Origin: Jeotgalibacillus aurantiacus
Lineage (GTDB): Bacteria > Bacillota > Bacilli > Bacillales > Jeotgalibacillaceae
Assembly: GCF_020595125.1 (NCBI RefSeq)
Contig: NZ_JACNMS010000001.1
Span: 186,001 to 250,000 of the forward strand
Direction: 5' to 3'
Length of the DNA: 64,000 bases
Shown piece by piece: positions 13,322-30,640 of the stretch. Each line of letters begins with the position of its first letter. Within the stretch, counting starts at the first letter, position 1. The translations under genes and the position numbers were made by a program. The notes under the pieces are model-generated. The model did no database searches and was not told where the DNA came from. It saw nothing but the letters and a program-made list of their open reading frames with translations.

Positions 13322-13327
13322 ATTATT

Positions 13328-13981: not shown

Positions 13982-14029
13982 AATGTATCCTTTCCATCCA
14001 TTCCTGATTTATTCAGACCATGCATAACC

Positions 14030-14458: not shown

Positions 14459-14480
14459 GTAAAAACCTCCTTTAAGAATA

Positions 14481-14553: not shown

Positions 14554-14578
14554 TGTTTCCCCCTGTTTCAAGCGCTTC

Positions 14579-15235
14579 TCACCTATTAAACTGCACGTTC
14601 CAACCCGGTGCGTACTTCAAAATAAGGGCTTTTTCCAATGCTTTTACCGTTTGTACATCCTCACTGGAATTCCCTACAACAAGAATTGAAATCTGTGCAT
14701 GATCAGCATTTTCGTTCATTAAACTGCCTGATCTGTGAGTTCTTGCGCTGTCACTGTTTCTGTTATAATCGCGGAGTCTTTTTCTGAACCCTCCATTACT
14801 GTGCTCAATCGCTCGACCAATATATTGAACTTTCCCGTTAACTTCCGCTTTATAAATGCCGATATCTTTGTTATATTTTTGAAGTTGTTCCGTGGAAAGA
14901 TCCCGTAGATTACCCAAACGTCTCCACCTAGATTCCCATTGTTTAAGGGTATAGCCTCCAAATGTCACTTCTCCAGCAGCGTTTACAGTTACCTGCTCAT
15001 TTACTGCACCACCACTATATGCTTTTACCTTTTGCTGCTCCAGGCGTCTTCTTGCCTCCTGAACCTTATTGGCATATTCAGGATCATCCATTCTATTAGA
15101 TTTTGCAGCTTGGTTTAATTGTGATTCATATTGTTTTAGTGTTCGTGCATTCTGCTTTTGTACTTGAGCCTGCTTTTTCATTCCCTCTTCAAGCAAAGCA
15201 GCTCCAATTTGCCCTATAGCCTTCCAAAAACTCAT
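14579..15235 (-). CDS. GIY-YIG-domain protein with coiled-coil N-terminus
   Basis: A 218-aa protein starting at the ATG at 15235 (MSFWKAIGQIGAALLEEGMK), eight bases after AAGGGGGG; longer in-frame reading is not needed. The N-terminal half is a helical, glutamine/lysine-rich coiled coil. The C-terminal half carries a GIY-YIG signature: IGIYKAEVNGKVQYIGRAIE, then GFRKRLRDYNR with the conserved arginine, and a late acidic residue in VKALEKALILKYAPGWNVQF. GIY-YIG domains are single-strand-nicking or double-strand nucleases. Context (Mrr nuclease next door) fits an accessory DNA-cleaving role, but this is inference. Confidence 0.75.
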   Translation of the reverse strand: MSFWKAIGQIGAALLEEGMKKQAQVQKQNARTLKQYESQLNQAAKSNRMDDPEYANKVQEARRRLEQQKVKAYSGGAVNEQVTVNAAGEVTFGGYTLKQWESRWRRLGNLRDLSTEQLQKYNKDIGIYKAEVNGKVQYIGRAIEHSNGGFRKRLRDYNRNSDSARTHRSGSLMNENADHAQISILVVGNSSEDVQTVKALEKALILKYAPGWNVQFNR

Positions 15236-15369
15236 GACATTAACCCCCCTTATTGTATAACTAAGTAGCACTTTATAAATACAAATACCCAATACTATAA
15301 TATCACTAATATGGAATTTACGTGTTATTTTTCGGATCTGTTCTTACCCCTATAAAACCATCCATAAAA

Positions 15370-15405
15370 AAAGACCCTGCAACTGATGAAGTTGTTAGGA
15401 TCTTA
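15370..15405. other. Imperfect hairpin in an otherwise empty gap
   Basis: AAGACCCTGCAACT ... AGTTGTTAGGATCTT can form an imperfect stem followed by T-rich DNA. It lies in the 15293-15642 intergenic stretch, which holds no gene I can support; only this hairpin and a partial REPIN-like element are visible. Confidence 0.35.
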
Positions 15406-15496
15406 CTTTTAAATTTGTCCAGTTCTTGTAGCAATAATTGGTCGAAAGCGTCACCTGTTTTGCGTTGAAACGTCTCCTCTGTCTCATCCTAAACTC

Positions 15497-15537
15497 GGGG
15501 GACACACCTGACAAAAAGGCACACCCGCTCCGTCCCC
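15497..15537. repeat. REPIN-like element, right half only
   Basis: GGGGGACACACCTG followed by GGCACACCCGCTCCGTCCCC; the left palindrome arm is lost. It lies upstream of the SLH-5'-nucleotidase gene. Confidence 0.7.
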
Positions 15538-15642
15538 ATCAAATTTTACAATTTTTACATCCCTTCTCCCTTTATTTCCTATATAATAAAAAAGTGAGTG
15601 TAAAAATCTCGCAATCTATCTATGTTCAAAGGAGAGAGTCTA

Positions 15643-17799: not shown

Positions 17800-17822
17800 G
17801 CTTTGTTCATTTGGAAAACTGA

Positions 17823-17874
17823 GGGGACGGAGCGGGTGTTCATTTCTTAAAAATTGAACACTCGCTCCGTCCCC
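17823..17874. repeat. REPIN-like palindrome, short hairpin form
   Basis: A 52-bp version without the usual centre: GGGGACGGAGCGGGTGTTCA and TTGAACACTCGCTCCGTCCCC pair almost completely and are followed by TTTTTT. It lies between convergent genes and is well placed to terminate the 5'-nucleotidase transcript. Confidence 0.85.
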
Positions 17875-17900
17875 TTTTTTCCCGGTGTTTCCTTTCTTCA

Positions 17901-18530
17901 TTATATAAATCTCTGCAACTCAGCTACTAACCTGTGGACTGTTGTACTTGGGTTCTTTCTAGCGTATGATTCGCATTTCACATTTTCACAAAGTTTCTCT
18001 GCATATGAGAAGGCCATTTTCTGGTTTCCGTGTTCATTTAAAAGTTCATATATATTCTTTTGATTTTTTTTATAATCACCTAGGTAACTTTTCAATTTTT
18101 CTACGTATTGATATCTTGTGAGAGCTGACTGACTGTATTCAAAGTGCAGCACATACCACAGTTCAAATGATTCATTAGAATATGCTAGAAAGATATCATT
18201 CTGTTCTGCCATTTGACATGCTTCATTAAATTGTTCATTTGTAAAGCTGTCTTTATCAAATACACACCAGACTTGCGAATAATCTGGATTCGCTTGTTCC
18301 TTTAGTTGTATAGCAGCTTTGACAAGACTTATGGTATTTGCGCCCTCTCCTTTGATTTCAATATCAACTGAATGTTTCTTTTTTTGATTAATCATTTCTT
18401 TAAATGATTTGAAGTAGTTAGGTTCCGTTTTCTCACCTTCACAAACAATTAAAAATCGATCAGGTGCAATAATTCTTTTCTTTCTTCTCCGCTCAAGTTT
18501 TCTTTTCTTAAATAAGTCATCAGAACCCAT
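17901..18530 (-). CDS. rloB: RloB-family protein (defence pair partner)
   Basis: A 209-aa protein. The N-terminus has a basic stretch (KKRKLERRRKKRII), then the RloB signature RFLIVCEGEKTEPNYFKSF (residues about 26-44) and, further on, the acidic motif WCVFDKDSF, consistent with a Toprim-like metal-binding site. The family was named from R-linked open reading frames in Campylobacter restriction loci and is regarded as an abortive-infection component. It overlaps the upstream AAA ATPase gene by 11 bp, which indicates translational coupling and a two-gene system. Confidence 0.85.
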   Translation of the reverse strand: MGSDDLFKKRKLERRRKKRIIAPDRFLIVCEGEKTEPNYFKSFKEMINQKKKHSVDIEIKGEGANTISLVKAAIQLKEQANPDYSQVWCVFDKDSFTNEQFNEACQMAEQNDIFLAYSNESFELWYVLHFEYSQSALTRYQYVEKLKSYLGDYKKNQKNIYELLNEHGNQKMAFSYAEKLCENVKCESYARKNPSTTVHRLVAELQRFI

Positions 18531-19785
18531 CTGGAACCTCCCGAACAGAATGGTTCACGTAAGGAATGGCTCCATATTTCCCCTGAATGTAATCCTTCTC
18601 AAACGGAGCATCTGACCGAATTTTTTGTCCATCTTCTGTTTCGAGATCCTCAAGTGAGTAAAGGTCAGTTCCACCATCCTCGGATTTTTCGGTAAACCAG
18701 ATCTGATCTTTCCTGAAGAAGCGGTTTGATAAGAACCCAGTATCATGAGTGGTAAAAATGAGTTGTGCATTCTCAGGATTATTTTCTTCAGAATTAAAGA
18801 GCTGCACAATATATCTTGTTAACAAAGGGTGGAGTTTAGCATCCAATTCATCTAGAATCAGCACGCCTCCGATATGCAAAGTACTAATAACCATCGCACT
18901 TAATGAAAATAACTTTTTAGTTCCTTCGGACTCAACTTCAGAAAAATTAAATTTTTTATTTTTAATGGTACCATCCTTTTGACGGACACGATGTTCACTG
19001 TATACAACATAATCATTCATCATCGATTCACGAACCTCGTCCGGGAAAAACTCAGGAATTTCCTTGTCTTCTATCTTCCTGGCTGATAAACCATCAATCC
19101 CTACATCTGCATTATTCATGAAGTCAATGATTACCGAACTAATATCAGGTCTATCATGCAAGATCTCTGCAGAAAGTTGAAACAAACTAGATTCCCTGTC
19201 GTTCGTAAGAATATTCAGTTTATTAAACCAATCAAGGATTCGTCTCGACAGTTCACCGTTTAGTTCAGAAACTACTGTAAGAAACAGGACAGATTCAGCT
19301 GTCTTCTCGTCTAAACCTCTTCCTTCTTTAAACTCACGCCCCAATCTATATTGATTGTCCTTACGTTCATATTGCATCGTTTCGCGAGAACTATTTTTAG
19401 TGTATAGCCACTCATCTGTAATTATTGTTCCTTTAACACTAAAACCGAACCTGTAAATAATATCTTCAATTGCAAATACAAACTCAAAGGTCGTCGGTAA
19501 TTCAAGACAGTTTTGATCAAGGTGAAATGGAGGCGCCATCGGTTTTCTTTTCATATTTACAAAAGATCGTGAATGTTTAATCATCATTGAAGCGTGTTTC
19601 AATGCTTGAATAAAATTAGATTTACCACTTCCATTTGCTCCATATACAACAGTTGATTTTAATATTGGACTATTTTTATAAAGAAAATAATTCTCGGGGT
19701 GTTTTTGTGAGCTTGATCCAATCATGCTAAAGGTGATTTTATTTTTAATTGATCGGAAATTCTCGACAGTAAATTCAAGAAGCAT
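18520..19785 (-). CDS. rloA: RloA-type AAA ATPase (AAA_15 family)
   Basis: A 421-aa protein. The ATG at 19785 (MLLEFTVENFRSIKNKITFS) follows GAAGGGGGGAGC; an in-frame ATG at 19815 precedes that site and is less likely. Features: Walker A VVYGANGSGKSNFIQALKHA, signature region SEGTKKLFSLSAMV, Walker B GGVLILDELDAKLHPLLTR and the switch histidine in LIFTTHDTGFL. This is the SMC/ABC-like ATPase of the OLD/AAA_15 group that is paired with RloB. Such ATPases act as sensors in phage defence pairs. The pair appears to be a two-gene operon between a REPIN-like element and the RAYT gene. Confidence 0.88.
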   Translation of the reverse strand: MLLEFTVENFRSIKNKITFSMIGSSSQKHPENYFLYKNSPILKSTVVYGANGSGKSNFIQALKHASMMIKHSRSFVNMKRKPMAPPFHLDQNCLELPTTFEFVFAIEDIIYRFGFSVKGTIITDEWLYTKNSSRETMQYERKDNQYRLGREFKEGRGLDEKTAESVLFLTVVSELNGELSRRILDWFNKLNILTNDRESSLFQLSAEILHDRPDISSVIIDFMNNADVGIDGLSARKIEDKEIPEFFPDEVRESMMNDYVVYSEHRVRQKDGTIKNKKFNFSEVESEGTKKLFSLSAMVISTLHIGGVLILDELDAKLHPLLTRYIVQLFNSEENNPENAQLIFTTHDTGFLSNRFFRKDQIWFTEKSEDGGTDLYSLEDLETEDGQKIRSDAPFEKDYIQGKYGAIPYVNHSVREVPDGF

Positions 19786-20022
19786 ACTGCTCCCCCCTTC
19801 TAGTTTTGTTTTCATTATTAGTATAATGCAATGAATGTTAAAAATATACGATTAAGCTGCATGAAATTTAAATTCGGAGCGTTTTTTTGATCCGAAAAAA
19901 CAAGAGAGTGAAGTAGCTGTTTCTTTTCAAGTTAGTTCTTTGTCCTATGAACGGAATCAGGACAGTGGTAAAACAAATGAAACATGATCAAATGTTGATC
20001 ACATATTTGAATTCACTGAGTT

Positions 20023-20790
20023 TCACGCCCGATATATCAAACTCTGCGAAACGCCAAGTAGTCTTGCTGCCTGTCGGATTGAAAGGTGTGGGATTTGTTT
20101 AATTTGATGAAGGATCGGGTCGCGCTGTTCTTTTGGGAGGCTTTTGATGTGAGGGAGGATTTCTGTTCCAACTTTTGCGGCGATGAGCTTTCTTGCCTGC
20201 TGGTCAGAGAGTCTGTTTGTATCCGTAAAGGCTGACATACACCAGTCTTGTTTTTTCGTTTCTTCGTTGAAGGTTTTAAAATGAGGAATGCTGTGATTGA
20301 AGAAGTTCATGATCAGAGAGGTTTCAATGAGGCTGGAAAAAGGACCGTTTTCGTGATAGTAAGCACTGCAGCTGCTCCACTTCCACTCGTTGGGCTTGTT
20401 AGTGATCCCGGCGATAACCGGATTTTGGTGAATGTATCGGACGACTGTGAGCAAGTAATGTTCTGTTTCCACTTCCTCACTTTTGAATCTGTCCTGAAAA
20501 AGGTGTCCATTCGTTTTATATTTGCCGTGATAGTATTTCACATAGCTGACACCGATTCTTTTCATGAAGAGGGACAGTTTTTCCATCGGACATTTTATTA
20601 AAAAGTGGACATGGTTCCCCATCTGACACCAGGCATGAATGACCAAAGGAAAGTCTCGTCTTTTCCGTTCGATGATGTTGATAAACTCAATCCGGTCATC
20701 TTCATCATGAAAGATCTCCTGCCGATTTGCTCCCCGGATAATGACATGGTAAAAGTCAGTTTTACTTAAAGTTCTCTTTTGCCTCGGCAT
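20023..20790 (-). CDS. REP-associated tyrosine transposase (RAYT, Y1/HUH family)
   Basis: A 255-aa protein with the IS200-like Y1 fold. Visible: MPRQKRTLSKTDFYHVIIRG, the HUH pair in GNHVHFLIKCP, the catalytic-tyrosine helix VSYVKYYHGKYKTNGHLFQD, RFKSEEVE and VVRYIHQNPVIAGI, plus WKWSSCSAYY. A C-terminal helix-turn-helix (LSIRQAARLLGVSQSLIYRA) is typical of one RAYT subgroup. RAYTs act on REP/REPIN palindromes rather than mobilising themselves as an IS. No flanking IS ends or target duplication were seen. It is 5 bp downstream of yifB, and about 15 REPIN-like elements lie within 20 kb, so it may be their enzyme. Confidence 0.92.
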   Translation of the reverse strand: MPRQKRTLSKTDFYHVIIRGANRQEIFHDEDDRIEFINIIERKRRDFPLVIHAWCQMGNHVHFLIKCPMEKLSLFMKRIGVSYVKYYHGKYKTNGHLFQDRFKSEEVETEHYLLTVVRYIHQNPVIAGITNKPNEWKWSSCSAYYHENGPFSSLIETSLIMNFFNHSIPHFKTFNEETKKQDWCMSAFTDTNRLSDQQARKLIAAKVGTEILPHIKSLPKEQRDPILHQIKQIPHLSIRQAARLLGVSQSLIYRA

Positions 20791-20794: not shown

Positions 20795-22315
20795 TCACTC
20801 CTTTACGACAGCAGGCATTGAATGCTGGATTTTCCGAAGCGTCAGGGCTTCTTCGAGAGATTGATCTGTAATATGAATATCTCCTTTTAAATCAGCTATG
20901 GTTCTGGCCAGTCTGATGCATTTTATCTGCACACGGTTACTGAATGCGTATTGACTTGATATTTTTTGAATCCAGTGCATTTGAGCTGAGGTGAGTGGAG
21001 AATGTTTGATGAGCATTTCATATGGAACTTGACCATTACAAATGATCTCCTGATAGCGTTCATACTGCCTTTCTCTCGCCTGAGTTACACGGCTGCGAAT
21101 AACTTCGGAGGTGTCAGCTGTTTCGAATTGCTTCTGTTCCAAATTGACAGGCTGGATTGATAAGAGGATATCAATTCGATCCAGAATGGGGCCGGATACT
21201 TTATTTTTGTATGTTTTAATCTGATGGACTGTACATGTACAATAATGTTCTTTTGATCCGTGAAATCCGCAAGGACAGGGATTCATCGCCGCAATAAAAA
21301 TAGCATCGGCCGGATATGTAACAGTAGAATGGGCTCGGCTAATTGTCACTTTATGACTTTCAAGTGGTTGCCTCATCATATCCAGGGTCCGCTTTGAGAA
21401 CTCACCCAATTCATCCATGAACAGAACTCCTTTATGCGCAAGTGAGACTTCACCGGGCTTGGGATTGCTGCCTCCTCCTATGATGGACACTGCTGATGCT
21501 GAGTGGTGAGGATGTCTGAATGGGGGCTGAGTGAGTGATCGATAAGGTGCTCCTGCAAGTTGGTACAAACTTATTTTTTCAAGCTGCTGTTCCTGATTTA
21601 ATGGTGGGAGAATGCTGACAAAAGTTTCAGCAAGGAGGCTTTTACCACATCCAGGTGGTCCATCCAACATGAGGTAATGCTCCCCGGCAGCTGCGATTTC
21701 CATCGCTCTTTTAGCCATCTCATGACCAAAAATCTGGCTGAAGTCCTTGTCATGGAACCATTCGTCTGATAACTGATTTCTGACTAGGGGAAAAGATAAT
21801 GTTTGTTTTCCATTAAAAATGTCGATGATTTGCTGTAAGTCATGAATGTAATTTAGCTCAAGTTCGGGAAGATCAATATGAGGTACGTTAGGATCAAGAG
21901 GGAGGAATAACTTGTTAAATCCAAGCTTTTTCGCTGCCAAAACCGCGGCCACCATCCCTTCAACAGGAACGACTTTTCCATCGAGTGATAATGCGCCGAT
22001 GAAGGCTGTATCTGAAGAAATCTCTTTTGTGATCAGGTTCGCACCCTTCATCATCGCAATGGCGATCGGCAAGTCGAATAGCGGCCCGTTCTTTTTCTGC
22101 TCTGCCGGCGACAGATTCACAACGACTTTCTTTTCAGTCATCAGCAGACTTACTGATCGTAAAGCCGCGATCACCCGCTCCCTCGATTCACGAACTGACG
22201 CATCAGGAAGTCCTACAATCGTCACGCTTTCCATCCCTTTATTCACTTGAACCTCAACCGTCACCCGGTAACCTTCAAGGCCTTTTAAACCGATACTTGA
22301 AACGAAATAAGTCAT
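20795..22315 (-). CDS. YifB/ComM family Mg-chelatase-like AAA+ ATPase
   Basis: A 506-aa protein of standard length. N-terminal Lon-protease-like fold (GLEGYRVTVEVQVNKGMESV, then GLPDASVRESRERVIAALRS), Mg-chelatase AAA+ core with Walker A LMLDGPPGCGKSLLAETF, Walker B GVLFMDELGEFSKRTLD, a cysteine-rich insert NPCPCGFHGSKEHYCTC and arginine finger region GPILDRIDI. The C-terminal helical domain ends in LTLRKIQHS. ComM promotes branch migration during natural transformation. It is transcribed toward the RAYT gene with a 4-bp gap. The tract 22316-22419 holds only the promoter region. Confidence 0.93.
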   Translation of the reverse strand: MTYFVSSIGLKGLEGYRVTVEVQVNKGMESVTIVGLPDASVRESRERVIAALRSVSLLMTEKKVVVNLSPAEQKKNGPLFDLPIAIAMMKGANLITKEISSDTAFIGALSLDGKVVPVEGMVAAVLAAKKLGFNKLFLPLDPNVPHIDLPELELNYIHDLQQIIDIFNGKQTLSFPLVRNQLSDEWFHDKDFSQIFGHEMAKRAMEIAAAGEHYLMLDGPPGCGKSLLAETFVSILPPLNQEQQLEKISLYQLAGAPYRSLTQPPFRHPHHSASAVSIIGGGSNPKPGEVSLAHKGVLFMDELGEFSKRTLDMMRQPLESHKVTISRAHSTVTYPADAIFIAAMNPCPCGFHGSKEHYCTCTVHQIKTYKNKVSGPILDRIDILLSIQPVNLEQKQFETADTSEVIRSRVTQARERQYERYQEIICNGQVPYEMLIKHSPLTSAQMHWIQKISSQYAFSNRVQIKCIRLARTIADLKGDIHITDQSLEEALTLRKIQHSMPAVVKE

Positions 22316-22569: not shown

Positions 22570-22616
22570 CAGCCTTTCGATCGGCGAATGAAACAGGATC
22601 TACGTCCCGGCGTTTC
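22570..22616. repeat. Cassette repeat, tail segment only
   Basis: AGCCTTTCGATCGGCGAATG, then GAAACAGGATCTACGTCCCG and GCGTTTC. This is the 3' part of the composite repeat; the hairpin part is absent. It starts the region shared by the two copies of the nucleotidyltransferase module (the other begins at 28344). Confidence 0.8.
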
Positions 22617-22687
22617 TTCCCTTCTCACACTCAATTGAATATAATAATAGTAAATCGATTAAAATACCGGTAACAGGAGTGATACTG

Positions 22688-22921
22688 ATGCGAACCATAT
22701 CTTTACAAGAGATCAATGAAAAAATCGTTAAAAATCGCAAAATGGCGGATGCAGTGATCAGATCTTCTTCTCATGGTCGCAGAAAGAAATCCCGGACGAG
22801 AACGCCTGGCGAAGTAAAAGCTCTGAATGAAATTTCCATTGCACGCTGGCAGAAGGCGGTTGAAAATAAGAAAATCATAAGAACAAGTATGAGGTCGATG
22901 TATTATGACTACCGTGAGTGA
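22688..22921 (+). CDS. Small basic protein paired with nucleotidyltransferase, copy 1
   Basis: A 77-aa basic protein. ATG at 22688 follows AGGAGTGATACTG (an in-frame GTG at 22679 overlaps the ribosome site). It contains a strongly charged stretch HGRRKKSRTRTPGEVKALNE and ends MRSMYYDYRE. A TATAAT box lies at 22640-22645. It overlaps the next gene by 17 bp, so the two are co-translated. A nearly identical copy occurs at 28450. Length, charge and partner suggest an antitoxin or a nucleic-acid-binding adaptor, but no family is recognised. Confidence 0.7.
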   Translation: MRTISLQEINEKIVKNRKMADAVIRSSSHGRRKKSRTRTPGEVKALNEISIARWQKAVENKKIIRTSMRSMYYDYRE

Positions 22922-23471
22922 TTTAAAACAAGCGCTTGTTAACCTGGCTGATAAACCGAAATTTGAAAGACAGCTTGAATTTGCTTCCCTACTGACTGAT
23001 TACTTTCTTCAAAAAGGGATCAAACCCATCGTAGTAGGTGGACTGGCAGTAGAGATTTATACGCGTAATGATTACCATACCCATGATATTGACTTTGTCA
23101 GCGAAGGCTGGCATTTGTTTAACGACTTGCTGATAAATGAATTAGGATTTGAACGCAGCGAAAGAGAGTGGTATCACATAGATGCTGAAATTGCGGTTAA
23201 AGTTCCTTCTAATCATCTGGAAGGCAACCCGGACAAGGTCTATGAAATTACCATTCCCAATCAAAAAAAGCTATACGTGATAAGCATTGAAGATATCATT
23301 ATTCACCGTCTTGAAGGCATTGCGTTTACATTGGTTTATCCAAAAGACGATGAAGACTATGAGTGGGCCTACCGAATGTTTCTCATTCATAAAGAGGATT
23401 TAGACCTTGATTATCTTACTTCCAAAGCAAAAGAAGTGAAGGTTTTTTCGTTGATTGAAGACTGGCTTTGA
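22905..23471 (+). CDS. Nucleotidyltransferase (AbiEii/MNT-like), copy 1
   Basis: A 188-aa protein with the core of the DNA polymerase beta-type nucleotidyltransferase fold: PIVVGGLAVEIYTRNDYHTH followed by DIDFV (GG, then DxD) and a third acidic position in EWYHIDAEIAVKVP. The helix ISIEDIIIHRLEGIAF is typical of the AbiEii/DUF6036 group. Type IV toxin-antitoxin toxins and MNT-type toxins use this fold to transfer nucleotides to tRNA or protein. It is coupled to the small basic gene upstream. The copy at 28664 is almost identical in protein sequence. Whether it is toxin, antitoxin or housekeeping enzyme is not settled by sequence. Confidence 0.8.
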   Translation: MTTVSDLKQALVNLADKPKFERQLEFASLLTDYFLQKGIKPIVVGGLAVEIYTRNDYHTHDIDFVSEGWHLFNDLLINELGFERSEREWYHIDAEIAVKVPSNHLEGNPDKVYEITIPNQKKLYVISIEDIIIHRLEGIAFTLVYPKDDEDYEWAYRMFLIHKEDLDLDYLTSKAKEVKVFSLIEDWL

Positions 23472-23478
23472 AGTAACT

Positions 23479-23567
23479 GGACCGAGCGGCCGTTCCTTTA
23501 TTTCTGCATTGTCCCCGGATCAATAAATAAGAGTAACAGAGCCCTCCAAATAACGCACCTCTTGTCC
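23479..23567. repeat. Degenerate REPIN-like element after nucleotidyltransferase copy 1
   Basis: GGACCGAGCGGCCGTTCC at the left, AACAGAGCCCTCCAAATAAC in the centre and GCACCTCTTGTCC at the right. It is repeated with few changes at 29238 after copy 2, so it travelled with the module. Confidence 0.7.
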
Positions 23568-23574
23568 ATACAAC

Positions 23575-23690
23575 AAAACTCCTGCCATCTCAACTAAGAG
23601 ACAGCAGGAGTTTTCTTTTCAGGAGCACATCCAGTTCATTCAACAGCCTTTCGATCATCGAATGAAACAGAATCTACGTCCCGGTGTTTC
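23575..23690. repeat. Composite cassette repeat, full copy
   Basis: Hairpin ACTCCTGC-ca-TCTC / GAGA-ca-GCAGGAGT (23579-23611) with a TTTTCTTTT tail, then a spacer, then CAACAGCCTTTCGATCATCG, then GAAACA-N15-TGTTTC at 23664-23690. The hairpin can terminate transcription of the upstream gene; the tail forms a second small hairpin. Confidence 0.85.
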
Positions 23691-23785
23691 AAAGAGATAA
23701 CAGGAGTCTCATTTCAGGAGCAAACCCAGTTCATTCAACAACCTTTCGATTGCCGAATGAAACAGAATCTACGTCCCGGTGTTTC
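23691..23785. repeat. Composite cassette repeat, left hairpin arm lost
   Basis: Starts at AGAGATAACAGGAGTCTC (right arm of the hairpin) and runs through CAACAACCTTTCGATTGCCG to GAAACA...TGTTTC at 23759-23785. Directly follows the previous copy, giving a tandem pair. Confidence 0.8.
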
Positions 23786-23886
23786 CCAGCAGGAGTTTCC
23801 TTTTTCAGATTCAAATCCAGTCCACCCAACAACCTTTCGACCACCGAATGAAACACCATCTACGTCCCGCATTTACCCGGTGTTTC
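23786..23886. repeat. Composite cassette repeat, third tandem unit, diverged
   Basis: Begins CCAGCAGGAGTTTCC (remaining right hairpin arm), continues CAACAACCTTTCGACCACCG, and ends GAAACACCATCTACGTCCCG with a short insertion before TGTTTC (23881-23886). It ends 7 bp before the next gene. Confidence 0.75.
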
Positions 23887-23893
23887 ATCTTAA

Positions 23894-24088
23894 ATGAGAA
23901 TGGAAAAACTTGAAGTAGGTCGAGACGGTTGTGTGAAATTTGATATAATGGAACTAAATAACTGTGCTGTGATTATCGACAATGGTAAAGCCAAAATGGT
24001 TCCTCTTCCTGAATACGGAGAAGCGCGGATCATCACTCACCAGGGTAAGATCAAGCGCGTAAAGTTTGAGGAAGGGGAAGAGTTTTGA
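23894..24088 (+). CDS. Small XtrA/YqaO-like protein
   Basis: A 64-aa acidic protein, MRMEKLEVGRDGCVKFDIME, then KAKMVPLPEYGEARIITHQG and KIKRVKFEEGEEF. The C-terminal pattern (PxYGE, THQGKxKRV, EEGEEF) recalls the phage-derived XtrA/YqaO family of Bacillus, whose function is unknown; the match is from memory. No strong ribosome site is visible before either ATG (23894, 23900). It overlaps the next gene by 4 bp (TTGA), so the two form a coupled pair inside the cassette-like array. Confidence 0.6.
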   Translation: MRMEKLEVGRDGCVKFDIMELNNCAVIIDNGKAKMVPLPEYGEARIITHQGKIKRVKFEEGEEF

Positions 24089-24846
24089 ATACTAGAAAAG
24101 AAAGATTACAAAATAAAAAAAATGTATTTAAGATTTTTTTGAAACAACTTCTATTTCATCCAATAGTTTTCCCGTTTGTAGTAATCATATTTAATATAGT
24201 AGTTATTTGGTTAATAGGTACTACAATTGAGTTCTTAGGAATATCATATAAAATTATAGAGGTTGTTACATTTTTTCTTTTTTATGCAGGTGCAGCTTAC
24301 AGTGTTCGATTAGTAATAAATAACGTTTTGAATCGACCTCCAAAAAAACTATACAAAAAATATAAAGATGTTAACGACTGGTATCATAAAGGGGCAGAGT
24401 TAAATAGTTCTGAATATTTCATCGGAATTTTGAATAAATCAGATTTTAATAATGATCCAATAGAAGATATGAGATCTATTTTGAAACAATTCCAGTCAGA
24501 ATCATTAGAAACTTTAAAAATTTTGAGAGTTCAATTTCAATCTGCTGTTACAACATCCAAACATGTAGCGATATTATCAGGTTCTTTAATAACTCTTGCA
24601 GTTTCAACTTTTATAGTTTATATAAGAACTTTCGATAATTTTGAAAATTCAATAAGTGATTTTTTTCAAACGACAATGTTATTAATTGTTTTATTCGTAG
24701 TTATTTTTGAGGCAATTCGGGGCTTTGTAATTGTTGGATTCAGATCAAATAATAAAGCTCAATTGTTTATCGATTTAGTTGATATTGTTATTGAGGAAAA
24801 AGATGAACAAAAGAAACAAGAGTCCGACCGGACACCTCCCCCCTAA
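24085..24846 (+). CDS. Four-helix membrane protein, AT-rich
   Basis: A 253-aa protein with a TTG start at 24085, preceded by GAGGAAGGGGAAGAG and overlapping the stop of the upstream small gene. Four likely membrane segments: residues about 26-45, 52-75, 168-190 and 200-222, with a ~90-residue cytosolic helical insert between the pairs and a charged tail (EEKDEQKKQESDR). Its base composition is clearly more AT-rich than the flanking repeats, suggesting separate acquisition. A membrane effector of an accessory system is one possibility; no family was recognised. Confidence 0.7.
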   Translation: MNTRKERLQNKKNVFKIFLKQLLFHPIVFPFVVIIFNIVVIWLIGTTIEFLGISYKIIEVVTFFLFYAGAAYSVRLVINNVLNRPPKKLYKKYKDVNDWYHKGAELNSSEYFIGILNKSDFNNDPIEDMRSILKQFQSESLETLKILRVQFQSAVTTSKHVAILSGSLITLAVSTFIVYIRTFDNFENSISDFFQTTMLLIVLFVVIFEAIRGFVIVGFRSNNKAQLFIDLVDIVIEEKDEQKKQESDRTPPP

Positions 24847-24848
24847 AT

Positions 24849-24960
24849 AACCCCTGCCATCTCAACTAAGAGACAGCAGGAGCCTTATTTCAGGAGCAAA
24901 CCCAGTTCACTCAACAACTTTTCGATCACCGAATGAAACAGAATCTACGTCCCGGATTTA
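24849..24960. repeat. Composite cassette repeat, 3' hairpin damaged
   Basis: Hairpin CCCCTGC-ca-TCTC / GAGA-ca-GCAGGAG, spacer, then CAACAACTTTTCGATCACCG, then GAAACAGAATCTACGTCCCG and an altered end (GATTTA in place of GTGTTTC). It directly follows the membrane-protein stop and can act as its terminator. Confidence 0.8.
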
Positions 24961-24978
24961 TCTAGCACTTGACACACC

Positions 24979-25096
24979 AAAAAACTCCTACCGTCTCATC
25001 TAAGAGACAGCAGGAGTTTCTTTTTCAGGAGCACATCCAGTTCTTTCAATAACCTTACGACCATCAAATGAAACAAGATCTACGTCCCGGTGTTTC
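24979..25096. repeat. Composite cassette repeat, full copy
   Basis: Hairpin ACTCCTAC-cg-TCTC / GAGA-ca-GCAGGAGT, spacer with AATAACCTTACGACCATCAA, and GAAACAAGATCTACGTCCCG then GTGTTTC, ending at 25096. Confidence 0.85.
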
Positions 25097-25157
25097 AACA
25101 GTTCACCCAACAACCTTTCGATCATCGAATGAAACAGAATCTACGTCCCGGTGTTTC
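25097..25157. repeat. Cassette repeat, tail only
   Basis: GTTCACCCAACAACCTTTCG, ATCATCGAAT, then GAAACA-N15-TGTTTC at 25131-25157. It is tandem with the preceding full copy. The following 25158-25306 stretch is AT-rich leader DNA with no gene. Confidence 0.8.
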
Positions 25158-25306
25158 CAGTGTTTCCTTTTTAAAAAGTCGATACAATCAGATTTATTAA
25201 TATATACATTAATATATTTTAAATATATTGACACGAAAACGAAAGTGCTTTATTATCAAATTAACAAATATATTTGTAATATATCAACGGAAAAGAGGAT
25301 AATATT

Positions 25307-25972
25307 ATGTTTGAAAAAACAAATGTTCAAAATGCTTGGATTTTACGTCCAAAGCCGCACGGGACTGATCAAATGAGATATTTTCTGAAAAACAATCGAA
25401 TATGTATTGGTTACCCTCTTGGATATTCATTAAATGACTTTAACTTTACAGAGTTAAAACGCGCTCTAATTGAGGAAGATGACAAACGTAAGAATAATGG
25501 TGAATTGAACTCAAACTGGATTGGAGGGTTGAGCAACTTAAACATTTTGGTCCGGGAAATGGGTATTGGTGATTTGGTGGTGGTCCCCCATGGAAACGAA
25601 ATTTATTTCTGTGTGGTTAAAAGCGAGTACACCTACCTCCCTGAATTCGATGAAGACAAAAAAGGTTCAGGATTTCCGCATCAGCGCGAAGTTGAATGGC
25701 TTTTAGAGGGAAAATCCATTTCTAGAAATGAATTACCTGAAGCACTTAGACACTCACTACAGTTTCCAGGAACAGCTGCAAGTATTTCAAAGCATATTAA
25801 TGTCCTTCTTGACTTGCTCTCAGATACCCGTATTGGCGATGTTCCTGAGAAAAATAAATTGAATATCTTAAAAGACGATAGTTTAAAATTCGTTACTAAT
25901 GTATTACACAACGAAAAATATCCGACTGAACAAAGGCTACGTGCAGCTGAGATTATTTTGAATATGAAATAG
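25307..25972 (+). CDS. Stand-alone EVE/PUA-like sensor domain protein
   Basis: A 221-aa protein. It resembles the N-terminal module of Mrr/McrB-type modification-dependent restriction proteins: AWILRPKPHG, NNRICIGYPLGYSL, a central LVREMGIGDLVVVPHGNEIY, then FPHQREVEWL and ELPEALRHSLQFPGTAASIS. That pattern (methionine-rich entry, GDxVVVP, HQRxVEWL, LPxxLRxSL) is shared by PUA-fold domains that recognise altered DNA bases. No nuclease motif is attached; the C-terminal 50 residues are helical. A partner nuclease may be encoded elsewhere, or the GIY-YIG gene next door may be it (inference). The start has AAAAGAGGATAATATT upstream. Confidence 0.65.
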   Translation: MFEKTNVQNAWILRPKPHGTDQMRYFLKNNRICIGYPLGYSLNDFNFTELKRALIEEDDKRKNNGELNSNWIGGLSNLNILVREMGIGDLVVVPHGNEIYFCVVKSEYTYLPEFDEDKKGSGFPHQREVEWLLEGKSISRNELPEALRHSLQFPGTAASISKHINVLLDLLSDTRIGDVPEKNKLNILKDDSLKFVTNVLHNEKYPTEQRLRAAEIILNMK

Positions 25973-26005
25973 TACTTTGATAAAAAGCTACTGTCTCAGT
26001 ATTCA

Positions 26006-26103
26006 GGGGACCGAGCGGTCGTTCCTTTTCTTAAGCTCTGTCCCCTAAAGAGGAAAAAAACACTGGGACAGGGCCTCGGTAATAGCACAACCGCTCCGTC
26101 CCC
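26006..26103. repeat. REPIN-like palindrome, rightmost clear copy
   Basis: Left GGGGACCGAGCGGTCGTTCC, right ACAACCGCTCCGTCCCC, centre TGGGACAGGGCCTCGG. No standard copy was found to its right apart from the degenerate one at 29238. Confidence 0.8.
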
Positions 26104-26149
26104 ATGTATCGGATTAATATAACAATTTAAAAGAAAAGGATGTTGCTCA

Positions 26150-26572
26150 ATGAATTGCAATTCTAGCCCGCTCGGCGTCCCTGGCGAATTACTAAATGGA
26201 TTTTCTGAGCTGAAACTATCTGACTTTGACAGACCAGGTGTGTATGGTCTCATTCTAAATGAAACAGAATATCTGTATATTGGAAAATCTAATACTTCTA
26301 TGTTTAAAAGAATTTGGGATCATATAGGGAACTTGTTAACGAAACCCGAATTATTTGGGCTATTACCTTCTGAATTAAAATGTAGGAATATGAGGATCAG
26401 TATTGTCGAGGTTAAGGATTTTGGTGACGACAAAATTAGTTTAAATGATAAAGAACTAAATGCTATTAATAAAAATAAACCAATCTTACAAATACAACCT
26501 AACAGTGATCGGTGCATCCGCGGCAATGACAAAAGAAGGGCTGCTGTAAAAGAAAGGATGCATATTGTTTGA
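26150..26572 (+). CDS. GIY-YIG nuclease-family protein
   Basis: A 140-aa protein. The domain starts with PGVYGLILNETEYLYIGKSN (GVY ... YIG), followed by MFKRIWDHIGNLL with the conserved arginine and histidine, and SLNDKELNAINKNKP with an acidic residue in the expected helix. A compact single-domain GIY-YIG protein of this length resembles small nicking enzymes. The preceding sequence has AAAAGAAAAGGATG. It is part of the plus-strand accessory gene run, next to the EVE-like gene. Confidence 0.78.
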   Translation: MNCNSSPLGVPGELLNGFSELKLSDFDRPGVYGLILNETEYLYIGKSNTSMFKRIWDHIGNLLTKPELFGLLPSELKCRNMRISIVEVKDFGDDKISLNDKELNAINKNKPILQIQPNSDRCIRGNDKRRAAVKERMHIV

Positions 26573-26750
26573 GTATTACGGTTTATAAATTAAGGCCGGA
26601 AAAGAATCAATCAAATTCGGCTCTTTTTCGTATTCGGAATTTTATGCGTCATATTAAACATCAGAGAACATATTTTAATTGGCAATTAAGTAATGTAGGT
26701 TTTGGCAATTAGCAGTACTCATTCATCTGTATTTATATACCTATTCGAGG

Positions 26751-26852
26751 GGCTTGACACGGAGCTTCTATGGTCATGCTTTTAGGCATTAGGGCAAGGT
26801 TTAAACTTGACAGGCGAGTTAGCATACCATGACCACCTCTCCGTGTAAAGCC
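26751..26852. other. Long imperfect palindrome, candidate structured RNA or recombination site
   Basis: GGCT-tg-ACACGGAG at 26751-26764 pairs with CTCCGTGT-aa-AGCC at 26839-26852. After an asymmetric internal loop (CTTCTA / CCT), TGGTCATG pairs with CATGACCA. That gives 20 Watson-Crick pairs around a ~50-nt apical region. No T run follows, so it is not a simple terminator. It lies in the 26573-27109 gap, which otherwise holds no gene and the partial repeat at 26921. Confidence 0.6.
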
Positions 26853-26920
26853 ATGAAGTATTCAATATGTCCTGCATACTCTTATTTGCCGTTTCCTACA
26901 ATATTAAATTGACATAATTA

Positions 26921-27028
26921 GCCATACCAACCAAGAGACAGCAGGACCCTTCTTTTTCAAGACAAACCACACCTCACTCAACAACCTTTCGATTGCCGAA
27001 TGAAACACAATCTACGTCCCAGTGTTTC
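26921..27028. repeat. Composite cassette repeat, hairpin partly degraded
   Basis: GCCATACCAACCAAGAGACA, GCAGGACCC (hairpin remnant), then CTCAACAACCTTTCGATTGC and CGAAT, then GAAACACAATCTACGTCCCA ending GTGTTTC at 27028. Confidence 0.75.
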
Positions 27029-27109
27029 CACATAGCATCGATCAATTAATAAAAACTAATTCCTGCCGATATATTTAAAGAGTGCAAATTTACCATAAGA
27101 GGTGAGGAA

Positions 27110-28045
27110 ATGGGAATAAAAATGGAAGATGCTTTTTATTCAATAAAAAATGACGATATTAGCATTGACTATGCAACAGAAAATTCAATTAAAGAGCATT
27201 TGTATTGTGTTACACCAAATTGCAGAATTCCAATTTCCTATCGAAGGGCTTCTATACGTAAAGTTAATGATAAGGATTCTATAGTAAAGGCACATTTTAT
27301 GAGAAAAGGTACAAAGGAACACGATGAAAATTGTAAATTTAATACGTTAGGTTTTGTGAAAGTAACAGCCCGGGATTCAGATGGTATATTAACAAGTATT
27401 GGGGATGGTATGTATAATTTTAGGCTTAATCTTATTACTTCTGCATTGAGGAGCCCCAAATCTATAAATCTGAATGGAGCTGCTAGACCGGACCTTGTAC
27501 AACCCACAAAACAAGCAACTAAGAAATATGAGAACAAAGGCAAAATAGATCCATATTTATCTACAATGCATAAAATACTGAAATTACGTACTGAAATAGA
27601 AGATAATAAGGAATTAAGCAATATTATAAAACTTAAGTATAATGGTCAAGAAATTCCTTGGAAGAATTTTTATTTTGAAAGGGACGACTATAGAAGATGT
27701 TTTACTTATTTAGAAAAAAATAAAATTGAGCATCCAATTTGTCTTGAAGGTAAAATCAAAGAAATTAAAGAGCCTAATGAAAAGTTCGACTATTATTCCG
27801 TTAAACTTACATCTATTTGGATAGAAGATACAGATCGTGATGGAGTAAAGAGAATACCATCCGTATCAGTTAATGTGTATAACAAGAAGGTGGGCGAGTA
27901 TATTCAATCCGAATACGTAAAAGGAAAGAGGGATTTAGCTTTTTACTCTTCTTTACAAACAAGAGCAGGAGTTTTTGATCAAGATACAACGTACCTAAAC
28001 ATTATTGGTTATATTAATCATAAACAACAGATTCAATTTCTTTAA
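27110..28045 (+). CDS. Hypothetical protein with N-terminal zinc-ribbon-like motif
   Basis: A 311-aa protein with ATG at 27110 after AGAGGTGAGGAA. Residues 33-75 contain C33, C38, H62, H71 and C75 (YCVTPNC ... AHFMRKG ... HDENCKF), similar to the treble-clef-type start of CoiA-like and related nuclease proteins. The remaining ~230 residues contain a beta-rich segment (CLEGKIKEIKEPNEKFDYYS, then VKLTSIWIEDTD) that could be an OB-like fold. The gene is AT-rich relative to the repeats around it. Function is not recognised; its place in the accessory array suggests a defence or DNA-related role. Confidence 0.65.
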   Translation: MGIKMEDAFYSIKNDDISIDYATENSIKEHLYCVTPNCRIPISYRRASIRKVNDKDSIVKAHFMRKGTKEHDENCKFNTLGFVKVTARDSDGILTSIGDGMYNFRLNLITSALRSPKSINLNGAARPDLVQPTKQATKKYENKGKIDPYLSTMHKILKLRTEIEDNKELSNIIKLKYNGQEIPWKNFYFERDDYRRCFTYLEKNKIEHPICLEGKIKEIKEPNEKFDYYSVKLTSIWIEDTDRDGVKRIPSVSVNVYNKKVGEYIQSEYVKGKRDLAFYSSLQTRAGVFDQDTTYLNIIGYINHKQQIQFL

Positions 28046-28124
28046 AATCAACTTTGTTTAATTCGTTCCCTAAAAAAAGAGACTGTGTAACATTTACATT
28101 TGGCGGATTTTGCGTCACCATATC

Positions 28125-28241
28125 AAAAACTCCTGCCATCTCAACTAAGAGATAACAGGAGTTTCTATTTCAGAAGTAAATTCAGTTCAGTCAACAACCT
28201 TTCTATTATCAAATGAAACAGAATCTACGTCCCGGTGTTTC
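28125..28241. repeat. Composite cassette repeat, full copy
   Basis: Hairpin ACTCCTG-ccaTCTC / GAGAtaa-CAGGAGT, spacer, GTCAACAACCTTTCTATTAT, then GAAACA-N15-TGTTTC at 28215-28241. It lies 80 bp after the zinc-ribbon gene. Confidence 0.85.
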
Positions 28242-28340
28242 AAGACAAAGTGACAGGAGCTTTTCGATTTAAGAACCAATCCTGATCACCCGGTAGTCCT
28301 TCGACAGTCGAGTGAAACAGGATCTACGTCCCGGCGTTTC
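28242..28340. repeat. Composite cassette repeat, left arm lost
   Basis: GTGACAGGAGCTTTTCGATT (remaining hairpin arm), a diverged spacer with CGGTAGTCCTTCGACAGTCG, then GAAACAGGATCTACGTCCCG and GCGTTTC at 28314-28340. Confidence 0.8.
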
Positions 28341-28374
28341 ATGGAATGAAACAGGATCTACGCCCCGTCGTTTC
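28341..28374. repeat. Cassette repeat, minimal tail
   Basis: GAATGAAACAGGATCTACGC, CCCGTCGTTTC. It is tandem with the preceding copy and marks the start of the second nucleotidyltransferase module. Confidence 0.8.
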
Positions 28375-28447
28375 CTTCCCTTCTCTTCCCCAATTGAATA
28401 TAATGAGAGTAAAACGATTAAAATACCGGTAACAGGAGTGATACTAA

Positions 28448-28680
28448 TGCGAACCATATCGTTACAAGAGATAGATGAAAAAATCGTGAAAAACCGCAAA
28501 ATGGCGGATGCAGTGATCAGATCTTCTTCTAATGGTCGCAGAAAAAAATCCCGGACGAGAACGCCTGGCGAAGTAAAAGCTTTGAATGAAATTTCCATTG
28601 CACGCTGGCAGAAGGCGGTTGAAAATAAGAAAATCATAAGAACAGGTTCGAGGTCGATGTATTATGACTACCGTGAGTGA
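28448..28680 (+). CDS. Small basic protein paired with nucleotidyltransferase, copy 2
   Basis: A 77-aa protein starting at ATG 28448 and differing from the copy at 22688 by only a few residues (for example EID for EIN, SNGRRKK for SHGRRKK, GSRSM for SMRSM). The same AGGAGTGATACT ribosome site and TATAAT box upstream are kept, and the 17-bp overlap with the next gene is retained. Both copies are intact, so the duplication has been maintained or is recent. Confidence 0.7.
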
Positions 28681-29230
28681 TTTAAAACAAGCGCTTGTAA
28701 ACCTGGCGGAAAAACCGAAATTTGAAAGGCAGCTTGAATTTGCCTCCCTATTGACTGATTACTTTCTGCAAAAAGGAATTAAGCCCATCGTAGTAGGTGG
28801 ACTTGCTGTAGAGATTTATACGAGGAATGATTACCATACTCATGATATAGACTTTGTCAGCGAAGGTTGGCATTTGTTTAACGACTTGCTGATGAATCAA
28901 TTAGGATTTGAACGCAGCGAAAGAGAGTGGTATCACGTAGATGCTGAAATTGCGGTTGAAGTCCCTTCCAACCATTTGGAAGGCAACCCGGACAAGGTCT
29001 ATGAAATTACCCTTCCGAACCAAAAGAAGCTATATGTGATCAGTATTGAAGATATCATCATTCACCGTCTTGAAGGTATTGCGTTTACATTGGTTTATCC
29101 TCAAAATGATGAAGACTATGAGTGGGCCTACCGCATGTTTCTCATTCATAAAGATGACTTAGACCTTGATTATCTTACTTCCAAAGCAAAAGAAGTAAAG
29201 GTTTTTTCGTTAATTGAAGACTGGTTTTGA
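28664..29230 (+). CDS. Nucleotidyltransferase (AbiEii/MNT-like), copy 2
   Basis: A 188-aa near-identical paralogue of the gene at 22905. Catalytic residues are the same (VVGGLAVEIYTRNDYHTH, DIDFV); changes are conservative or outside the core (INEL to MNQL, HIDAEIAVKV to HVDAEIAVEV, PKDDED to PQNDED, DWL to DWF). Both copies appear functional. Upstream partner and downstream REPIN-like remnant are duplicated too, so the unit copied is the module, not just the gene. Function as discussed for copy 1: probable nucleotide transfer in a toxin-antitoxin-like pair, unproven. Confidence 0.8.
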   Translation: MTTVSDLKQALVNLAEKPKFERQLEFASLLTDYFLQKGIKPIVVGGLAVEIYTRNDYHTHDIDFVSEGWHLFNDLLMNQLGFERSEREWYHVDAEIAVEVPSNHLEGNPDKVYEITLPNQKKLYVISIEDIIIHRLEGIAFTLVYPQNDEDYEWAYRMFLIHKDDLDLDYLTSKAKEVKVFSLIEDWF

Positions 29231-29237
29231 AGTAACT

Positions 29238-29326
29238 GGACCGAGCGGCCGTTCCTTTATTTCTGCATTGTCTCCGGATCAATATATAAGAGTAACAGAG
29301 CCCTCCAAATAACGCACCTCTTGTCT
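29238..29326. repeat. Degenerate REPIN-like element after nucleotidyltransferase copy 2
   Basis: Nearly the same as 23479-23567 (GGACCGAGCGGCCGTTCC ... GCACCTCTTGTC), showing that it was duplicated with the module. Confidence 0.7.
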
Positions 29327-29333
29327 ATACAAC

Positions 29334-29450
29334 AAAAACTCCTGCCATCTCAACTAAGAGACAGCAGGAGTTTCTTTTTCAGGAGCAAATTTAGGTCATT
29401 AAACAGCCTTTCGACCACCGAATGAAACAGAATCTACGTCCCGGTGTTTC
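29334..29450. repeat. Composite cassette repeat, full copy
   Basis: Hairpin ACTCCTGC-ca-TCTC / GAGA-ca-GCAGGAGT with TTTCTTTTT, spacer, AAACAGCCTTTCGACCACCG, then GAAACA-N15-TGTTTC at 29424-29450. It closes module copy 2 just as 23575-23690 closes copy 1. Confidence 0.85.
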
Positions 29451-29453
29451 TAC

Positions 29454-29641
29454 AAAAACACGTTGCCAGTTATGAATAACGCCCATCCTCTTCGTTACAT
29501 CAGGCGGAAGATACGTCATAAAACAAAAGAAGCTCCAGATCACTCAATTAAGAGCAATCTGGAGCTTTCTTTTCAGGACAACCTCTTTCAACCACAACCT
29601 TTCGATTACCGAATGAAACAGAATCTACGTCCCGGTGTTTC
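29454..29641. repeat. 188-bp extended cassette repeat, variant hairpin, left copy
   Basis: Starts AAAAACACGTTGCCAG, continues through ATCCTCTTCGTTACATCAGG, then a different hairpin AGCTCCAGAT / ATCTGGAGCT that keeps the inner CTCAATTAAGAG, then the standard tail GAAACA-N15-TGTTTC (29615-29641). The copy at 30386 is nearly the same, so the acetyltransferase gene lies between direct repeats. Open reading frames through it are not credible genes. Confidence 0.85.
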
Positions 29642-29790
29642 ACAACCGAAGGTTTACGAGCACTTAGTGGCCAGTGGAGTAGAATTTTTAGCGGTTGATT
29701 ATCAACCCCCTACTGCTGAATAAATGAATATATTAAGAAACCTTAACTCTGTTATACTGATTATAAAATGTTTGGCATGGAGGAATAAAA

Positions 29791-30273
29791 TTGGAGATAA
29801 GGTTATTAGATTCTAATGAAATTTCAAACTTAATTGATTTTGTTCATCAAGTAGAAGAAATAGATGAAAATTGTAATGATTTTCTTGAGGTAAGTCCGCA
29901 TTTTTTTAAGGTAATGAAAGATAAAAAAGTAATTTGTTATGGAATATTTGAAGAAGATAAATTAATAGCATATTATCTTGTGCATTTTGAAGGAGTCCAT
30001 CCATATAGTTTGCCAAAGGGAATTAACAAAGAATGTATAAACAAAACAGCAGAAATTTTCTCGTTTTTAGTGCACTCTTCATTTCGAGGGAGATCACTTC
30101 AAAAAATATTGACTGAAAAGGCAGAATTAGAAGCGATAAATAGAGGTTTTTTATACATGCTTGTAAAGGTAAAAAGTAATAATGAATACTCCAAAAATAA
30201 CTTCGAAAAAATGGGATATATCACAGATACTCAAAAGAACGGATTGAGAACTTATTATAAATCATTAAGATAA
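29791..30273 (+). CDS. GNAT-family N-acetyltransferase
   Basis: A 160-aa protein with a TTG start at 29791 after ATGGAGGAATAAAA. GNAT core: YGIFEEDKLIAYYLVHFEG (beta strands 2-3), FSFLVHSSFRGRSLQKIL (motif A, with the acetyl-CoA loop reduced to RGRSLQ from the usual RGxGxG/A), and YSKNNFEKMGYITDTQKNGL (motif B). It transfers an acetyl group from acetyl-CoA to an unknown amine. The gene is AT-rich and bracketed by 188-bp direct repeats, consistent with a captured cassette. Confidence 0.85.
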   Translation: MEIRLLDSNEISNLIDFVHQVEEIDENCNDFLEVSPHFFKVMKDKKVICYGIFEEDKLIAYYLVHFEGVHPYSLPKGINKECINKTAEIFSFLVHSSFRGRSLQKILTEKAELEAINRGFLYMLVKVKSNNEYSKNNFEKMGYITDTQKNGLRTYYKSLR

Positions 30274-30385
30274 CGATTGAAAGAACAACACCCAACGATG
30301 ATCTTGACCAAAATGAAGATTGTCCTGAATGTTATGTTTTAGATTTATGTCTCAATCGGTAATAGATGCGTCTCAATCACTCCCT

Positions 30386-30574
30386 AAAAACACGTTATCC
30401 GATATGAATAATGCACATCCTCTTCGCCACATCAGGCGGAAAATACGTCATAAAATAAAAGAAGCTCCAGATCACTCAATTCAGAGCAATCTGGAGCTTT
30501 CTTTTCAGGACAACCTCTTTCACCCAACAACCTTTCGATCACCGAATGAAACAGAATCTACGTCCCGGTGTTTC
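30386..30574. repeat. Extended cassette repeat, variant hairpin, right copy
   Basis: Near-identical partner of 29454-29641, including the variant stem AGCTCCAGAT / ATCTGGAGCT (with a loop change to CTCAATTCAGAG) and the tail GAAACA-N15-TGTTTC at 30548-30574. A decayed start of another tail (GAATGAAACAAGATCTA) follows near 30592. This is the right end of the array. Confidence 0.85.
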
Positions 30575-30640
30575 AACAGCATTTTAAGCATAGAATGAAA
30601 CAAGATCTAATCTCTTTATTTCATTTATATATACAGTAAA

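Follow-up and report, generated by a model that had tools for sequence, protein, structure and literature searches.

The genome of Jeotgalibacillus aurantiacus (G000; RefSeq assembly GCF_020595125.1) contains, within a stretch of 64,000 nt that was analysed in full and is referred to here as the window (contig NZ_JACNMS010000001.1, positions 186,001 to 250,000), an island of small genes at 22570-30574 that are separated by copies of a composite repeat. The repeat has a terminator-like hairpin followed by a conserved tail. The tail forms a subfamily within a family of repetitive extragenic palindromic sequences (REPs) dispersed throughout the genome, where they occur alone or as inverted pairs (REP doublets, REPINs), and the whole element is on balance a solo REP, that is half a REPIN, fused to the hairpin. 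The explanation of the island that we favour, with moderate confidence, is REP-anchored duplication and deletion, probably driven by a REP-associated tyrosine transposase (RAYT) encoded nearby.

The initial annotation had described about 14 copies of the repeat in 8 kb, situated in most gaps between plus-strand genes, and this observation is confirmed. Repeat finding (families of 13-14 direct copies) places 14 copies, all on the plus strand, between 22.57 and 30.57 kb, and a tail scan gives 14 tails in the island plus one partial tail at 30595. The ten open reading frames (ORFs) taken as genes (22679-30273) are all on the plus strand, those on either side of the island (comM-like and S-layer homology (SLH) genes) are on the minus strand, and seven of the eight intergenic gaps between 22315 and 30739 contain at least one copy. 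The sole gap without the repeat, at 25972-26150, carries a different REP. A full copy consists of a hairpin of about 37 nt, a linker and the tail. The description of a ~115-bp element with a hairpin in each copy is correct for eight of the 14 (including 26921-27028, the left arm of which is degraded) but not for the remaining six, which are left-truncated at different points and keep the right hairpin half, the linker or the tail only. The composite of hairpin and tail is unique to the island in this genome: a 128-nt query has 21 genomic matches, and the seven outside the island are all limited to query positions 68-128, the tail side.

In the island the tail has the form TTCGN5CGAATGAAACAnnATCTACGTCCCGGTGTTTC; the commoner form of the same family in the genome (family 1) is TTCGN5CGAATGATTCAnnATATACGTCCC, solo or in inverted pairs, the latter seen for example in loci L028, L029 and L034. 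No copies had been noticed elsewhere in the window. This holds for a 17-nt consensus, whose ten matches in the window at up to three mismatches all fall in the island (mean 0.10 and maximum 2 in 100 shuffles), but the tail itself recurs throughout the genome: with up to three mismatches allowed, ATGAAACANNATCTACGTCCCGG is found at 27 sites, of which 14 belong to the island and 13 lie outside it. A wider family-1 pattern, again with three mismatches allowed, was counted in 12 Jeotgalibacillus genomes, an inverted pair scoring as two matches. It gave 44 matches in G000, numerous and scattered between genes as solo copies and inverted pairs, 67 in G004 (taken as Jeotgalibacillus sp. R-1-5s-1), three in G011 (taken as J. 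alimentarius YKJ-13), one each in G006 and G008, and none in the other seven. On the minus strand the island copies show ACGTAGAT, to be compared with the GTAG-type tetranucleotide at the foot of a stable REP hairpin, but the tail folds only weakly (z about -1) and family-1 copies outside the island have ACGTAT. In the CGTC-tagged REPs of PMC3733652, CGTC sits at one end of a stem 8-9 bp long whose loop has 4-5 nt; here CGTC is internal to the conserved unit, 12 nt before its GTTTC end, and the stems are of 4-6 bp. A phage origin of the repeat was rejected, its 27-nt core having no exact match in viral contigs, and a literature text search with a 21-nt core gave no match.

The copies end sharply on the right and variably on the left. 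Among the 14 island copies identity drops from 0.86 at the last base of GTTTC to 0.34 at the next base and then stays at background, and among 22 copies in G004 the column identity is 0.74 at the last REP base and 0.29 at the next; leftward, homology fades at varied points. When the G000 and G004 arrays are compared with themselves and with each other, 178 non-independent alignments in direct orientation reach 45 nt or more. Both right ends fall no farther than 6 nt from a REP 3' end in 129 of them, both left ends in a single one, and at least one left end in 45. A homologous block begins between -1 and +6 nt after 11 of the 26 array REP 3' ends (island 5/14, G004 6/12), whereas 2000 random point sets average 1.8 and never exceed 7. 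Within the range -7 to +6 there are 47 left ends; since 45 of them start 0-6 nt past the REP end and only two overlap it (-6, -7), there is little microhomology.

Several of these blocks involve genes. Segment B (1.1 kb, two genes, 92.9% identical to segment A) both begins and ends at REP 3' ends; segment D1 (190 bp) is 92.6% identical to D2; tandem truncated composites belong here too, as do two broken nucleotidyltransferase copies in G004 that start 0-1 nt past a REP 3' end. D2 continues the 3' flank of a GIY-YIG-like gene as found in G004, and because gene and flank are joined there and 3.7 kb apart in G000, the array has been reshuffled. The initial annotation had regarded the element as a recombination or mobilisation site of a capture system. 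A recombination site is likely, the junctions pointing to the REP 3' end (GTTTC) as a recurrent and sharply placed breakpoint, but an undescribed capture system is less likely.

The same annotation reported no tyrosine recombinase in the window, and it overlooked a gene (20023-20790) for an HUH (histidine-hydrophobic residue-histidine) tyrosine transposase, which is separated from the island by about 2 kb. Its product, RAYT1, matches Pfam Y1_Tnp with 55.1 bits (cut-off 23) and NCBIfam REP_Tyr_transpos with 71 bits, under the cut-off of 80; no solved structure matched it at E 0.001. Residues H60, H62 and Y119 are invariant in seven homologues, and Y119 is presumably the catalytic tyrosine. The co-occurrence of an HUH gene with the repeat, which the annotation had put forward as a check, is borne out: among the 12 genomes close relatives of RAYT1 are confined to G000 and G004 (63% identity), just the two REP-rich ones, while seven further congeners carry more remote RAYT homologues (28-43% identity). 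Two Y1 genes are present in G000, the second (RAYT2, C1:174765-175538) with REPs of a second, related family (family 2) alongside. G004 has one, with a family-1 REP on each side at distances of about 0.5 and 0.1 kb. A RAYT flanked by its own REPs, the arrangement known as a REPtron, is seen for the G004 orthologue with family 1 and for RAYT2 with family 2, and by flank and by exclusion RAYT1 is probably the partner of family 1. Family-2 REPs lie in the 20-kb upstream part of the window and number 98 matches in G000, 57 in G004 and none in the ten other genomes. Their pairs (AAGGAACACCCGCTCCGTCCCC) are dense at 1719-17876, and RAYT2, just outside the window, is their likely RAYT.

Solo REPs are uniformly oriented within a region (13 to 0 in the island, 0 to 12 in L068, 0 to 6 in L030), which is suggestive of a single-stranded substrate. 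Solo copies oppose the local GC skew in 56 of 72 cases, and so do 11 of 15 loci, with three contrary and one tie (L094 was excluded for its near-zero skew, and solo copies were absent from L034 and L092). Relatives of IS200/IS605 are reported to work on the template of the lagging strand (PMC6006769), and the E. coli enzyme TnpAREP to cut and rejoin REPs (PMC8266576). In the order of events that we infer for the island, RAYT1 would do the cutting, on folded single-stranded REP DNA and directly after GTTTC, and the cut REP end would become linked to DNA close by, with orientation kept. Joining to upstream DNA would give a tandem duplication; joining to downstream DNA would give a deletion, by which the next gene is drawn up to the repeat. 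Repeated rounds, together with homologous recombination between copies, would leave packed gene-hairpin-REP units of one orientation, and the island would thereby come to resemble a cassette array without being an integron.

A number of points weigh against this explanation. The GC-skew rule was set post hoc and the copies are non-independent. RAYT1 in the window has no clear family-1 REPs directly alongside, and the pairing of RAYTs with REPs is drawn from two genomes; it is also not strict, because G004 has its 57 family-2 REPs and yet no second Y1 gene was found there. The random-point null has no model of intergenic clustering, the alignments compared with it are non-independent, and a sharp right end by itself is expected for any inserted repeat. 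The GAAACA-N15-TGTTTC motif would make only a weak hairpin of the tail (z -1.3, 20 of 200 shuffles being as good). The repeat also has no Rfam match in the window.

The features of the island and its RAYT side, in window coordinates, are as follows.

20023..20790, minus strand: RAYT1, a Y1 HUH transposase and the repeat's probable partner (Pfam Y1_Tnp, 55.1 bits)
20795..22315, minus: presumed comM/YifB-like gene adjoining RAYT1 (ORF)
22576..22616, plus: REP tail c0 without hairpin (tail scan, copy alignment)
22679..23471, plus: two-gene unit, copy A, 80-aa ORF and DUF6036-like nucleotidyltransferase (DUF6036 23.1 bits, just below the cut-off of 23.6)
22586..23690, plus: duplication segment A, its right end a REP 3' end (92.9% identical to 28344-29450)
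23575..23690, plus: full composite c1, hairpin and REP (repeat finding, hairpin alignment)
23691..23876, plus: partial copies c2 (to 23785) and c3, in tandem behind c1 (copy alignment)
23894-24088, plus: PBSX XtrA-like gene (PF17356, 67 bits, cut-off 29.7)
24085-24846, plus: 253-aa ORF of no assigned family (no match at E 0.01; one below-cut-off match, E 0.069)
24850..25157, plus: composites c4 (to 24961) and c5 (24980-25096), then tail-only c6 (repeat finding, copy alignment)
25307..25972, plus: PDC-S02-like candidate defence gene (PADLOC, E 3.4e-12)
25990..26102, no strand assigned: REP pair of the second family, in the gap without the island repeat (repeat finding (D9, D7), tail scan)
26150..26572, plus: possible GIY-YIG gene, G004 homologue 85% identical (GIY-YIG E 0.038, below cut-off)
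26921..27028, plus: composite c7, hairpin left arm degraded (repeat finding, hairpin alignment)
27110..28045, plus: 311-aa gene of a phage protein family of unknown function (phrog_7195, E 3.1e-14)
28125..28374, plus: composite c8 (to 28241), partial c9 (to 28340) and tail c10 (repeat finding, copy alignment)
28344..29450, plus: segment B, in which the two-gene unit recurs together with composite c11 (29334-29450), starting 3 nt past the c9 3' end
29454..29641, plus: derived segment D1 with composite c12 (92.6% identical to 30386-30575), starting 3 nt past the c11 3' end
29791..30273, plus: GNAT acetyltransferase (PF00583, 35.5 bits, cut-off 20.7)
30356..30574, plus: segment D2, including composite c13, with homology to the G004 GIY-YIG-like gene's 3' flank (78.5% identical to G004)

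Judged from these matches, the island contains accessory or phage-linked genes. In the two-gene unit (22679-23471) the nucleotidyltransferase gene overlaps with the 80-aa ORF; the pair recurs in other genera and is possibly a toxin-antitoxin pair. The presumed comM/YifB-like gene beside RAYT1 has a strong match in only G000 among the 12 congeners, and G011 retains a comM-like fragment beside a RAYT fragment. An operon of comM and RAYT as a general rule was rejected, only G000 and the G011 fragments showing it among 18 RAYT-bearing or array loci examined.

The composite was found in three of 101 relatives searched (G000, G004 and G011) and only in this chromosomal region. The G004 array is in the same region but inverted, the order there being sequence corresponding to 47.6-51.7 kb of the window, the array, the RAYT, and sequence corresponding to 6.4-9.2 kb. 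G011 has three composites at a contig end beside an SLH gene, and comM and RAYT fragments on a separate contig; in G006 and G008 the SLH locus is without an array, with one and two weak tail matches per 20 kb (up to four mismatches). A shared S-layer neighbour was considered and dropped, the SLH genes being homologous in G000 and G011 and the G004 array adjoining a gene for a large secreted protein, not evidently homologous to them. Array content varies among relatives, a possibility the initial annotation had raised: G000 and G004 have in common the nucleotidyltransferase pair and, 24 kb off in G004, the GIY-YIG-like gene, and the remainder differs. That the copies bracket genes of one direction is true of all ten genes in the window but of only five of ten in G004, the other five opposing the repeat.

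The nucleotidyltransferase gene is sporadic, being present in 27 of 299 genomes of the order, and is therefore mobile by some route. In G209 and G184 the pair sits between REPINs; as REPINs occur every few kb in these regions, the two cases were dropped as independent evidence for cassettes. In two species of another genus (L098:2161-2469 and L099:2161-2480) there is a second 80-aa gene copy, which stops immediately ahead of a REPIN; the nucleotidyltransferase is absent downstream, and there are short duplications at the REPIN end.

Genuine capture would mean that the RAYT mobilises gene-hairpin-REP cassettes, as circles or by one-ended transfer, and inserts them after REP 3' ends. The two-gene unit B lying exactly between REP 3' ends, the setting of D1, a copy of D2, behind such an end, the different neighbours of the GIY-YIG-like gene in G000 and G004 (in the latter with REPs on both sides) and the sporadic nucleotidyltransferase would all agree with it. 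However, duplication and deletion account for the junctions more simply, half of the G004 genes oppose the repeat, no unit was found at an unlinked locus, the composite being confined to one region in three congeners, and the pair between REPINs in G209 and G184 is not special. Capture, with a gain of foreign genes at REP ends, is thus an unlikely explanation. Genome-wide occurrence irrespective of genes, which the initial annotation had named as an argument against capture, is found in part: outside the arrays the tail is a REP, often in inverted pairs. A bolder and rather unlikely idea is that RAYT and REP together act as a cassette-array engine: the HUH enzyme would cut folded REP DNA at its fixed 3' end and join or insert gene-hairpin-REP units at that point, a domesticated transposase thereby building and reshuffling a resident array in an integrase-like manner. 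An integron itself was rejected, there being no integrase over the cut-off and the repeat being a genome-wide REP family. With TIGR02249, eight G000 matches were obtained, none over 265 bits and the best at 95.5, and 14 control genomes, none of them a positive control, were all below the cut-off too; GTTRRRY/RYYYAAC core ends were noticed neither by the initial annotation nor on reading the sequence here, no attC model having been run. Nor do the genes keep one direction relative to the repeat in both arrays, as integron cassettes would.

If the RAYT played no part, replication slippage at hairpins and homologous recombination between repeats might have reshuffled the island with the REPs as passengers. 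Tandem partial copies and the short duplications at REP ends do resemble slippage, and blocks of 92-93% identity could readily recombine, but homology begins after the REP end and not across it, with little microhomology, and exchange between REPs would not join a REP end to gene interiors; this is quite improbable in our estimation. Of the readings offered by the initial annotation, its alternative of a hitchhiking repeat agrees best with the data, although it does not account for the REP 3' end behaving as a breakpoint. It is very improbable that the element is an immobile structured RNA or terminator family under selection at gene 3' ends. The hairpin alignment has 88.6% of its cells paired and three pairs with two-sided changes, its covariation score is 0.172 against 0.074 in shuffles (reached by 0 of 500), and the composite folds well as DNA (z -5.0). 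Yet 80 of 500 shuffles equal the count of two-sided pairs, six of the 14 copies lack a full hairpin, the window has no Rfam match at the gathering threshold, by which a known RNA family was rejected, and such selection would leave the junctions unexplained. The hairpin may act as a terminator; a scan for terminators gives 7 sites where shuffles give 5.0, and it detects the composites on the minus strand only.

Integron cassette arrays, chiefly the superintegrons of Vibrio, consist of single genes with similar repeats in one direction. The island is like them in its fixed break near the repeat end and in its units of a gene plus a 3' repeat; it differs in having no integron integrase over the cut-off, no attC core ends noticed, a repeat that is a genome-wide REP, and variable left ends. 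In one-ended HUH transposition (IS91/ISCR and Helitrons; compare PMC4778049) an HUH enzyme acts on an element with one fixed hairpin end, the other end being variable. The resemblance lies in the HUH enzyme, the fixed hairpin end and the carrying or deletion of adjoining genes, whereas here the enzyme is a Y1 RAYT, not a Rep-type rolling-circle enzyme, and the events are local only.

The closest likeness in kind is to the REP/REPIN and RAYT (TnpAREP) systems and REPtrons: short intergenic repeats, solo or in inverted pairs, many per genome, and a RAYT-type Y1 HUH enzyme, with a REPtron of family 1 in G004 and one of family 2 at G000:C1:174765. Unlike known REPs, those of the island have no clear GTAG-tagged hairpin, are fused to a terminator-like hairpin, and lie clustered in an array of same-direction genes, the breakpoints falling at one end of the REP; no comparable array was found in the portions of the REP/RAYT literature searched. 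The TIRYT/TIRtron elements are RAYT-like genes flanked by repeats, some with a GGGGWSAS motif (PMC3733652). Family 2 of the window carries GGGGACAG at seven places, to be compared with this motif, whereas the other strand of family 1 reads GGGGACGT, one base off, and gene arrays do not figure in the content of that paper that was available. Among the papers listed for Jeotgalibacillus repeats or for cassettes without an integrase, none was relevant.

These observations bear on the role of RAYTs in their hosts and on the spread of REPs; in 2021 the study of REP dissemination by TnpAREP was described as still in progress (PMC8266576). In the island REP ends mark dated, gene-sized rearrangements beside a RAYT, and these offer natural substrates with predicted cut sites. 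If confirmed, duplication and deletion at REP ends would make REP-RAYT systems local shapers of gene arrays, beyond the spreading of small repeats, and would be one explanation for cassette-like arrays without an integrase.

Two further regions deserve mention. At 18520-19815 of the window there is a gene for an AAA ATPase that resembles the defence proteins AbiLi and AriA (PADLOC E 1.8e-90 and 2.6e-39). Locus L028, a region with full REPINs, has a 1282-aa ORF (2529-6377) downstream of what we take to be a glmS-like gene; the ORF presumably encodes a reverse transcriptase with a C-terminal nitrilase-like part.

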